Positions 45,004 through 47,340 of a stretch of 64,000 bases of DNA are shown here, in pieces. Each line of letters begins with the position of its first letter. Positions within the stretch are counted from its first letter, which is position 1. This DNA comes from an uncultured Sphingomonadaceae bacterium (GTDB taxonomy: Bacteria > Pseudomonadota > Alphaproteobacteria > Sphingomonadales > Sphingomonadaceae): NCBI GenBank assembly GCA_947493955.1, contig CANLSQ010000001.1, positions 930,001 to 994,000 of the forward strand. Direction: 5' to 3'. A program made the position numbers and the translations under genes. Under the pieces are notes generated by a model, which saw nothing but the letters and a program-made list of their open reading frames with translations, searched no databases and was not told the DNA's origin.

Positions 45004-45050
45004 GGTCGATACTCTTATGCTGCAAGCGATTTCGCGCAAGGCGGAAATTG

Positions 45051-45167
45051 CTAGTTAATTTCAATTTTCTGGAAAAATAATCCCTTAGACGGGGCCGCTG
45101 CATCGAGCAGCAGCACAGCTACGCCTAAGGGCGCATAAGTCGGTGTAGCTCTAGGTTTGAGGTGCAT
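45051..45167 (-). CDS. Putative leuA leader peptide (38 aa, Leu-Leu-Leu)
   Basis: ATG at 45167 opens a 38-codon frame ending TAG at 45051, 47 nt before leuA. The peptide contains GVAVLLLDAAAPSKG with three adjacent Leu codons (CTG CTG CTC) falling inside the attenuator hairpin. An overlapping alternative frame starts at ATG 45172 (15 codons with CTA, CTA, CTT, MRCTSNLELHRLMRP) and stops exactly at the base of the hairpin. Neither has a clear Shine-Dalgarno; with the promoter candidate at 45180-45207 the mRNA would begin at or very near the first ATG, i.e. leaderless. Translation is not shown. Confidence 0.5.
   Translation of the reverse strand: MHLKPRATPTYAPLGVAVLLLDAAAPSKGLFFQKIEIN
45073..45131 (-). 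terminator. Attenuator-like terminator in the leuA leader
   Basis: On the minus strand CCCTTAGGCG (45131-45122) pairs with CGTCTAAGGG (45091-45082) as a ten-pair stem (one G-T), with a second hairpin CTGCTGC-TCGAT-GCAGCGG inside (45113-45095), followed by ATTATTTTT. Upstream, AGCTACACC and GGCGTAGCT (overlapping the 5' arm) can form a competing stem. These are the parts of a transcription attenuator ahead of leuA. The 300-bp gap between leuA and YHS1 is otherwise empty apart from promoters. Confidence 0.6.
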
Positions 45168-45179
45168 CTCATGACGATA

Positions 45180-45207
45180 TTCATATCTGTTGCGGTGCAA
45201 AAATCAA
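45180..45207 (-). promoter_or_regulatory. Candidate leuA promoter
   Basis: TTGATT (45207-45202) and TATGAA (45185-45180), 16 bp apart, resemble a housekeeping promoter; expected start of RNA is about 45173, at the first leader ATG. It would give a transcript carrying the leader peptide and attenuator. No experimental support. Confidence 0.4.
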
Positions 45208-45343
45208 CCATGGCGGTGAAATTATTTTGTAGGAAGTGAAACCTTTTTGCTCAGCCTCGCGAAAACATCAACGAGCATGACGGCTCAACGAAATTAATTT
45301 TACCCCTAATCACAAGAACTTAAACCTTATCAAGGAACTGAAA

Positions 45344-45829
45344 ATGAAAACACTGATTATGCCAATCGCACTCGCGCTCGCCGCGACGACCGCAACTTTT
45401 GCATTGCCGATAGATGCAGCAATTGCCGGCCCGACCTACACAGGTGTTAAAGGTGGCAACACCGCCGTAGGCGGTTATGACGTCACATCTTACTTCACCG
45501 GCAACGGCGTTCCGGTAAAAGGAAGCAAGGCGCATAAAGTGACCTATAAAGGCGCTGACTATTTCTTCAGCAACGCCGCCAACGCCAAAAAGTTCAAGGA
45601 AAAGCCAGCACAATTTGCCCCGCAATATGGCGGTCACTGTGCTTGGGCCATGTCACGCGGTTCGCTCGCTCCCGGTGATCCCTTGGTCTACAAAGTGGTC
45701 AACGGCAAGCTCTACCTCAACGTCAACAAACAGGTTCAGAAAACCTGGCTGACCGATGTTGCCGGTTTCATCAAAAAGGCCAACATTAACTGGCCAAAAT
45801 TCCCGGACGACGCCAAATTCGGCGGTTAA
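45344..45829 (+). CDS. Exported YHS-domain protein (YHS1)
   Basis: This 161-residue protein has a signal peptide (MKTLIMPIALALAATTATFA, cleavage near DAAIAG). A YHS domain follows: GGYDVTSYFTGNGVPVKGSKAHKVTYKGADYFFSNAANAKKFKEKPAQFAPQYGGHCAWAMSRG; the remaining DPLVYKVVNGKLYLNVNKQVQKTW is a beta-rich extension. YHS domains are small and linked to metals in copper ATPases, but their exact role in stand-alone periplasmic proteins is unknown. One conserved Cys is present (GGHCAWA). It is followed 60 bp later by the Ala/Cys-rich gene and then a second YHS protein. Confidence 0.88.
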   Translation: MKTLIMPIALALAATTATFALPIDAAIAGPTYTGVKGGNTAVGGYDVTSYFTGNGVPVKGSKAHKVTYKGADYFFSNAANAKKFKEKPAQFAPQYGGHCAWAMSRGSLAPGDPLVYKVVNGKLYLNVNKQVQKTWLTDVAGFIKKANINWPKFPDDAKFGG

Positions 45830-45889
45830 TCCGATCCCCTATTCGTCACGTAGCTTTCTAACTTAAACACTTACACCAAAGGAAATACC

Positions 45890-46192
45890 ATGAATAATCA
45901 ACGTAAACTCTCTGCAATGCTCGCTGTCATGGGCGGCCTGTCTCTTGCGACTCCTTCTGCAGCGCTTGCCACCTGTACGGCAGCTGCTCCAGTAGCCCAA
46001 CCAGCCTGTGGCGCATGTGCAGCAGCATGTGCGGCAGCCGGTGGAGCTTGTGCCGCCGCCGCATGCGGTGCCTGCGCTGCCGCGGACTGCGCGGCTGCCG
46101 CTTGTGCCGCCGGATGTGCTGCCGATGCCGGAGCTTGTGCTGCTCAACCCGCTGCTTGCGGTGCCTGCGCAGCGGCCTGTGCACCTCAATAA
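45890..46192 (+). CDS. Exported Ala/Cys-only low-complexity protein
   Basis: This is a 100-residue open frame with AAAGGA before its ATG and a convincing signal peptide ending ATPSAALA. The predicted mature part (about 73 residues) has 14 Cys and about 40 Ala and no Lys, Arg, His or aromatic residue; the Cys occur as repeated CGAC and CGACAAAC units, spaced 3-7 residues. Such a sequence suggests a thiol- or metal-binding chain or a scaffold, resembling in style only the low-complexity precursors of bufferin-type peptides. No MNIO-like modifying enzyme is near. Codon use matches real coding (GC-rich third positions). Function unknown. Confidence 0.75.
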   Translation: MNNQRKLSAMLAVMGGLSLATPSAALATCTAAAPVAQPACGACAAACAAAGGACAAAACGACAAADCAAAACAAGCAADAGACAAQPAACGACAAACAPQ

Positions 46193-46202
46193 AGAATAGT
46201 GG

Positions 46203-46246
46203 TTTGAGGGGGTTAGCTTGTGTTAAGACGCCAGCTCCCCCTCAAA
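46203..46246 (+). other. Intercistronic hairpin between Ala/Cys protein and YHS2
   Basis: TTTGAGGGGG (46203-46212) and CCCCCTCAAA (46237-46246) pair over ten bases, with AGCT/AGCT extending the inner stem. There is no T tract, so it is more likely a processing or mRNA-stabilising hairpin than a terminator. It would fit differential expression of two parts of one message. Confidence 0.6.
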
Positions 46247-46270
46247 CAGATTACCCAAAGGAATTCACAA

Positions 46271-46819
46271 ATGAACAAGACATTTTTAGCAGCGATCATG
46301 ATGGCCACGTTGCCAATCGCTTGCTCCGCTCCTTCGTCTGAAACTGCAGAAACAACGGAAACAGCAGAAACAGCTGAAGCCGCAATTATCGAAGTTTCCG
46401 ATGATATGGAATTGCCTGTTTTCACCGGTCCTGCCGGATCCGAAAATGTGGCTGTAAGCGGCTATGACGCGGTCAGCTATTTTGAAGGCGACGGTGTGCC
46501 CGTTGAAGGCAGCAAGGAGCATCGCGTCAGATATAATGGCGTTGAATATCACTTCGCTTCAGCCGAAAATGCGGCTAAATTTCAGGCTGAACCTGCAAAG
46601 TTTGCCCCGCAATATGGGGGACACTGTGCCTGGGCGGCCTCCCGCGGCAAGCTCGCATCCGGTGATCCGAAACTCTATGCGGTTGTCGACGGTAAGCTCT
46701 ATCTGAACTTCAATCAAAAGGTTCAGGATACCTGGAACGAGGATATTCCCGGTTTTATCGAGAAAGCCGACAAGGAATTCCCGAAGATTCCAGCGGATGC
46801 CCGTTACGACGACGCTTAA
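46271..46819 (+). CDS. YHS-domain lipoprotein (YHS2)
   Basis: This is a 182-residue paralogue of YHS1. The signal (MNKTFLAAIMMATLPIAC) has a lipobox-like PIAC, so it may be lipidated. A Glu/Thr/Ala linker (ETAETTETAETAEAA) follows, then a YHS domain: SGYDAVSYFEGDGVPVEGSKEHRVRYNGVEYHFASAENAAKFQAEPAKFAPQYGGHCAWAASRGKL and the same DPKLYAVVDGKLYLNFNQKVQDTW extension. ATG 46271 is preceded by AAAGGAATTC; the open frame reaches 46220 but lacks an SD there. Conserved Cys in GGHCAWA. Confidence 0.88.
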   Translation: MNKTFLAAIMMATLPIACSAPSSETAETTETAETAEAAIIEVSDDMELPVFTGPAGSENVAVSGYDAVSYFEGDGVPVEGSKEHRVRYNGVEYHFASAENAAKFQAEPAKFAPQYGGHCAWAASRGKLASGDPKLYAVVDGKLYLNFNQKVQDTWNEDIPGFIEKADKEFPKIPADARYDDA

Positions 46820-46840
46820 GTCCGGCTCAGGTATCGATCA

Positions 46841-46873
46841 GGGCGGTGGAACACGGTTCTGCCGCCCTTTTTT
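46841..46873 (+). terminator. Strong terminator after YHS2
   Basis: GGGCGGTGGAAC pairs with GTTCTGCCGCCC as a 12-bp stem with a three-base loop ACG, followed by TTTTTT. It closes the YHS1-Ala/Cys-YHS2 transcription unit 22 bp after the YHS2 stop. Confidence 0.95.
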
Positions 46874-46941
46874 GATACATAGGCAAAAATTAACCGGGAT
46901 CGGATAAGACTGCGTCTTTCAAGCGTTTGCAAGGTGCAAGA

Positions 46942-47340
46942 ATGTACAGACTTGTCTATATCAGCACACCAAAGCCGGATATCACTCCGGTAGAAATGAC
47001 AGATATTGTGCGGGTCGGGCGGCGGAACAACATCAAGAACGGCATAACCGGCCTTCTAATTCAGGATAGACGGCGCTTTCTCCAGTATCTGGAGGGGGAG
47101 GCAGAGCAGGTTGAGGAGACTTTTGCCCGGATATCCGCCGACAGACGCCATTCCGCGATAATCCAGCTGAAAAACGGTTATATCGGCCGGCGCCAGTTTC
47201 CCAAATGGGAAATGGCTTCGAAATATGTGGATGGCGACTCCAGCCTGCTATCCGCCGTCAAGGAACTGGCAAAAGACTGCGACCGTGACGTGGCAAATGA
47301 ACTGATGAGCTTTGCCACGGCACGGGACCGCGCCGCGTAG
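46942..47340 (+). CDS. BLUF-domain blue-light photoreceptor
   Basis: This is a single-domain 132-residue FAD-binding BLUF protein. The flavin/hydrogen-bond residues are visible: MYRLVYIS (Tyr), NNIKNGITGLLIQD (Asn), RFLQYLEGE (Gln) and FPKWEMA (Trp and Met of the C-terminal strand). No effector domain is attached, so it must act through an unknown partner. ATG 46942 was chosen for the canonical MYRLVYIS start. Located after the YHS2 terminator, so probably transcribed on its own. Confidence 0.92.
   Translation: MYRLVYISTPKPDITPVEMTDIVRVGRRNNIKNGITGLLIQDRRRFLQYLEGEAEQVEETFARISADRRHSAIIQLKNGYIGRRQFPKWEMASKYVDGDSSLLSAVKELAKDCDRDVANELMSFATARDRAA

Follow-up and report, generated by a model that had tools for sequence, protein, structure and literature searches.

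A conserved Ala/Cys peptide encoded between two YHS_seleno proteins in Sphingomonadaceae: a probable periplasmic thiol sponge

What does an exported protein consisting of little but alanine and cysteine do between two proteins of the YHS family? This question is raised by a locus within a 64-kb window, i.e., the whole stretch of 64,000 nucleotides analysed, from an uncultured Sphingomonadaceae bacterium. An earlier note on this DNA had described two periplasmic YHS proteins flanking the Ala/Cys protein in one unit, and had proposed an undescribed metal-chelating or redox-thiol role in the periplasm. The open reading frames were placed correctly there in coordinates and frame, and RNA folding identified both the hairpin before YHS2 and the terminator after it. 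The unit comprises the following features:

45237..45263, plus strand: candidate ECF-sigma-type promoter, TGAAACC-N16-CGAA, sigma-F-like, 80 nt before YHS1
45344..45829, plus strand: YHS1, 161 aa, exported, YHS_seleno_dom, with the single Cys C99 (codon 45638-45640)
45890..45970, plus strand: signal peptide of the Ala/Cys protein, MNNQRKLSAMLAVMGGLSLATPSAALA, from the sequence and alignments A2 and A3
45971..46192, plus strand: mature Ala/Cys chain, 73 aa with 14 Cys, and stop codon; no Pfam, NCBIfam or PDB match
46199..46247, plus strand: hairpin lacking a T-run, in the gap from the Ala/Cys gene to YHS2, from RNA folding in 9 species
46271..46819, plus strand: YHS2, 182 aa, YHS_seleno_dom, with lipobox LPIAC and a GGHC site as in YHS1 (Pfam, NCBIfam)
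46841..46875, plus strand: intrinsic terminator closing the unit, from RNA folding

The unit is flanked by leuA on one side and by BLUF/ilvC on the other, the BLUF blue-light sensor gene (window 46942-47340) being located directly 3' of the terminator. On the minus strand, window positions 45040-45180 resemble a leuA attenuator with a possible leader peptide containing LLL and a candidate CCCTTAGGCG/CGTCTAAGGG stem followed by a T-run. The whole gap before YHS2 folds at -30.5 kcal/mol, and comparable hairpins of -20 to -29 kcal/mol were found in the 8 relatives from which this gap was extracted. The hairpin may serve in stabilisation or processing of a transcript on which YHS1, the Ala/Cys gene and YHS2 are presumably carried together. 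PADLOC gave no match to anti-phage defence, and the search for known RNA elements returned a sub-threshold chance match only.

The Ala/Cys open reading frame (45890-46192) encodes 100 aa, and cleavage after ALA (residue 27) leaves a mature chain of 73 aa in which 14 Cys are accompanied mostly by Ala, with no Lys, Arg, His or aromatic residue. The signal peptide and the composition reported in the earlier note were thus confirmed. Signal peptides were called by eye and by simple rules; the GGL core of this one is common to most poly-Cys peptides of other genera. Among 15 orthologous genes (14 genomes of the genus and the MAG contig L058), the median dN/dS was 0.053 for the gene and 0.056 for its mature part, and 5123 of the 7454 pairwise differences fell on third codon positions. 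A chance frame is excluded because dN/dS is low and the differences are concentrated at third positions, and a low-complexity artefact was likewise ruled out by dN/dS together with the conserved start, signal and gene order. The protein is therefore genuinely encoded and kept by purifying selection, which answers the question of coding constraint raised in the earlier note. As to the suggested conservation of Cys spacing, the number of Cys is near-constant (14-15 in most species, 10-11 in two), whereas the spacing varies through short indels. The protein was confined to the genus in a search of 60 relatives, matched nothing in Pfam or NCBIfam at E up to 1 and nothing in the PDB, and the identical filter detected no second exported Cys-rich open reading frame within the 64-kb window. 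No paper describing the YHS/Ala-Cys arrangement was found in the literature searched, in support of 'undescribed' in the earlier note.

The order YHS1-Ala/Cys-YHS2 recurs in 14 genomes of the genus, the source included (L002-L013, L015 and L019; most comparison loci span 1.5-2.5 kb to either side), in support of the claim that the three genes form one unit and in answer to the suggestion that the arrangement be sought in relatives. Neighbouring YHS and poly-Cys genes were also identified in three further genera of the family, g35, g61 and g28 (L061-L067). In g35, a poly-Cys segment is followed by the YHS domain in one polypeptide (L061:1428-2057, L062:1752-2360), which ties the peptide and YHS parts together, and the fusion gene adjoins a separate poly-Cys gene. 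The unit, or the YHS gene alone, is often located beside leuA and/or ilvC in several genera, suggesting vertical descent. No poly-Cys neighbour was found at the YHS_seleno genes sampled outside Sphingomonadaceae, and a plasmid search with YHS1 returned relatives that were all below 60% identity (Rhizobium, Vibrio and others). A Sphingomonadales-type unit between leuA and ilvC also occurs on contig L058, which is titled as a Sulfitobacter MAG and is probably misbinned.

The genus also has another Ala/Cys family, one of lipoproteins (MSNETSFRKMLAVAGGLALAVPALSAC...), with a copy in the source genome at C1:1814366. In all 12 loci examined (L025:1501-2451, i.e., G000:C1:1814366, and L014, L016-L018, L020-L024, L026 and L027), its gene is followed by a DUF6969 gene, a pairing that also occurs at some loci of other genera, and locus L206 unites genes for a YHS protein, a poly-Cys protein and a DUF6969-like protein. 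A GH108-like lysin gene is often located upstream of the lipoprotein gene. DUF6969 displays invariant HAH, PEER and EHGHFH stretches; nothing on it was found in the literature searched, and the PDB gave no convincing match.

Both flanking proteins exceed the cut-offs of Pfam YHS (PF04945; YHS1 37.8 and YHS2 38.4 bits, cut-off 30.3) and of NCBIfam YHS_seleno_dom (NF041384; 138 and 147 bits, cut-off 70). Their earlier assignment to the YHS family therefore stands, but YHS2 as a free periplasmic protein does not, since its lipobox LPIAC indicates that it is probably a lipoprotein. Metal-binding YHS/TRASH domains have several Cys ligands, which the YHS_seleno subfamily lacks. In YHS1 and YHS2, the Cys of the GGxC (GxU) motif lies in GGHC, and the C99 column of YHS1 is at least 90% conserved (alignment A1). 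The GxU position is occupied by Sec in one known YHS_seleno protein (PMC13188914). A classical YHS metal domain was ruled out, as there is one near-invariant Cys only. Such a single, Sec-replaceable Cys is more suggestive of redox chemistry at a thiol than of metal binding in the classical sense, and the earlier argument leading from YHS domains to metals is weakened accordingly. The AF2 model of YHS1 reached a mean pLDDT of 89 and matched no solved fold at E up to 0.001; its top fold match, an axonemal entry over 50 columns, agrees with a weak Pfam match to FAP206. Sequence searches gave no convincing solved relatives, and no functional study of the YHS_seleno family was found in the literature searched.

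Within the window peptide, Cys residues recur with a period of 3.6 residues (p = 0.004 by shuffling; five periods were tried). This period is stronger in the lipoprotein paralogue L025, a period of 3.5 with the heptad CGACAAA occurs in the L063 peptide, and in five lipoprotein paralogues the Cys are spaced only by 3, 4, 7, 10 or 11. The peptide is probably alpha-helical with Cys along one face, a model for which AF2 predicted helices at low confidence (pLDDT 52) and no confident fold. In the peptides of genus g28 the Cys are five residues apart, a spacing that does not place them on a single helical face; what is conserved therefore appears to be the density of thiols and not a particular fold.

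Upstream of YHS1, an invariant ECF-type promoter, apparently of the stress type, is newly recognised here. Its blocks GTGAAACCTTT and CGAAA are invariant across the alignment of 14 species, with a variable spacer between them, and the site is present in all 14 species and on contig L058. The unit's site, GAAACC-N16-CGAA, is one base off in the -35 element from the Caulobacter sigma-F consensus, GTAACC-N16-CGAA (PMC3511200). A scan for GTAACC- or GAAACC-type sites with an N15-17 spacer identified such a site upstream of 14 of the 33 family YHS genes outside the genus (0.05 expected by shuffling), some with the exact GTAACC; the antisense strand of the same 33 upstream regions contained none, and neither did any of 24 YHS genes outside the family. 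Those poly-Cys-linked YHS genes of g28 without an exact site have GTCACC-N16-CGAA instead, and L062 has a one-mismatch N15 site. Absence of NrsF had been considered as a natural control for the promoter, since the NrsF-less genomes G238 and G268 do not have the exact motif, but was dropped, as their YHS genes keep a one-mismatch site; another ECF sigma factor may therefore be involved.

In the source genome, sigF-nrsF is present (NrsF 147 bits, the ECF sigma gene overlapping nrsF) immediately after the DoxX gene in a DUF2282/MNIO/DUF2063 bufferin operon (L075, L001; G000:C3, ~67.9-72.6 kb). GTAACC/GAAACC sites are not enriched there in number (26 versus 33 for the reversed pattern), but they are in placement, with 7/26 promoter-placed versus 1/30 reversed-pattern sites (p = 0.015). 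The genes behind sites include those for AhpC/TSA, DUF1223 and VTT-Pyr_redox proteins; less strictly placed sites precede SelR (MsrB), a second DUF2282 lipoprotein (G000:C1:1535785, L085) and a glutathione-reductase-like gene. In Caulobacter, the sigma-F regulon responds to Cr, Cd and Cu, CC3255/CC3252 stay at or below twofold induction with peroxides, paraquat or diamide, and the published regulon contains no YHS gene (PMC3511200). Cu induces Caulobacter SigF, and a sigF mutant is copper-sensitive (PMC8224329). The Brucella ECF16 sigma factor drives a Met-rich periplasmic sink together with its putative repair enzyme (PMC8315932).

The Caulobacter regulon, the Brucella Met sink and the single YHS_seleno Cys together lead us to propose, at about an even chance, that the unit is a periplasmic thiol-protection system, in which a thiol sink for thiophilic metals and/or oxidants is served by YHS proteins as thiol partners. 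The Ala/Cys protein itself is probably a periplasmic sponge, not described before, whose thiols would take up toxic soft metals or oxidants, and the thiol/metal or redox role suggested earlier remains plausible. On entry of thiophilic metals or strong oxidants into the periplasm, a sigma factor presumably of the SigF/NrsF kind (ECF16) would activate YHS1, the peptide and the YHS2 lipoprotein. The exported peptide would then present 14 thiols and little other chemistry along one face of its probable helix. It would thereby act as a sink, either sacrificial or buffering, with soft metals of the Cu(I) kind as the most likely targets and oxidants as further ones; its ligand may be copper, another metal or an oxidant. 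The YHS proteins, possibly in a catalytic role, would act on or dock to the poly-thiol via their near-invariant, Sec-replaceable Cys, e.g., by maintaining its reduced state or through exchange of metal or disulfide with it; in g35, the two partners are one polypeptide.

How the Cys residues are used could also be read differently. The peptide might be the precursor of a bufferin-like RiPP, with the single MNIO of contig C3 acting on it in trans and the modified Cys chelating copper. The earlier statement that no MNIO lies nearby holds locally but not for the genome, where MNIO and a DUF2282 bufferin are encoded on that contig; the MNIO operon and the unit have a common sigma-F-type promoter class, and precursor genes unlinked to MNIO genes, perhaps modified from another locus, are on record (PMC12452194). 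MNIO was encoded in 7/7 checked non-genus genomes with YHS/poly-Cys loci and in all genus members with the unit, hence in every checked genome with such genes. However, it was encoded in 28/32 genus members whether the unit was present or absent, so that co-occurrence says little. In addition, no MNIO was found beside any YHS/poly-Cys gene at the loci examined, the peptide carries no DUF2282 or other bufferin signature, and no MNIO or DUF2063 gene lies in the cluster. Modification in trans is thus possible, while the RiPP reading as a whole appears unlikely to us.

A purely redox system without any metal role, in which the YHS proteins recycle the poly-Cys peptide as a sink for disulfides or oxidants, would suit the Sec-replaceable Cys, the peroxiredoxin, SelR (MsrB) and disulfide reductase genes of the putative regulon, and the ECF16-driven Met-rich sink (PMC8315932). 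The response of the Caulobacter regulon to Cr, Cd and Cu, with CC3255/CC3252 at no more than twofold under peroxides, paraquat and diamide (PMC3511200), argues against it, as does the lack of a reductant source for periplasmic thiols in the unit, and we regard it as improbable. Least expected is stoichiometric storage of Cu(I) in a helical bundle of the Csp type lined with Cys, the YHS proteins being only structural or chaperones: the helical Cys periods of the window peptide (3.6) and L063 (3.5, heptad CGACAAA) and the restricted spacings of the five paralogues would fit, but the absent Pfam match, the low AF2 confidence, the period-5 versions in g28 and the repeated indels between orthologues make this a distant prospect. 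Beyond the proposed thiol-protection system, it is conceivable, though rather doubtful, that YHS_seleno represents a new class of periplasmic thiol/selenol oxidoreductase whose dedicated substrate is a low-complexity poly-Cys peptide, a recyclable Cys sink corresponding to MrpX/MsrP.

With the unit, the YHS_seleno family is given its first partner, along with a probable regulator and a link to stress, and a genetically tractable poly-thiol buffer is proposed in Sphingomonadales which may operate alongside bufferins as part of one stress response. YHS1 and YHS2 are members of YHS_seleno_dom (NF041384), whose members sampled elsewhere in the order have neither a poly-Cys neighbour nor such a promoter. 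The g28 versions resemble the CefA Cys-every-fifth RiPP (NF038108) in their period of 5, and L064 gave a weak sub-threshold match (18.4 bits, cut-off 30), whereas the window peptide has neither match nor this period. Csp1-type copper storage proteins are likewise exported, and thiols on one helical face are probable for the modelled peptide; unlike these Cys-lined four-helix bundles, however, it is short, has no sequence match and reached a pLDDT of only 52. Bufferins (Buf1 DUF2282, Buf2; MNIO-modified copper RiPPs), an operon for which is also present in the source genome, are exported Cys-rich peptides under a sigma-F-type promoter, but the unit has YHS partners in place of a bufferin signature and an MNIO/DUF2063 neighbour. 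MrpX/BcrX with MsrPQ likewise combine an exported low-complexity peptide rich in sulfur residues with an adjacent putative redox partner and an ECF16-type promoter, the unit differing by Cys for Met and by YHS, of putative repair activity, for MsrP/MsrQ. By analogy, the unit may be read as the Met-rich sink MrpX with Cys in the place of Met, or as a bufferin left unmodified.
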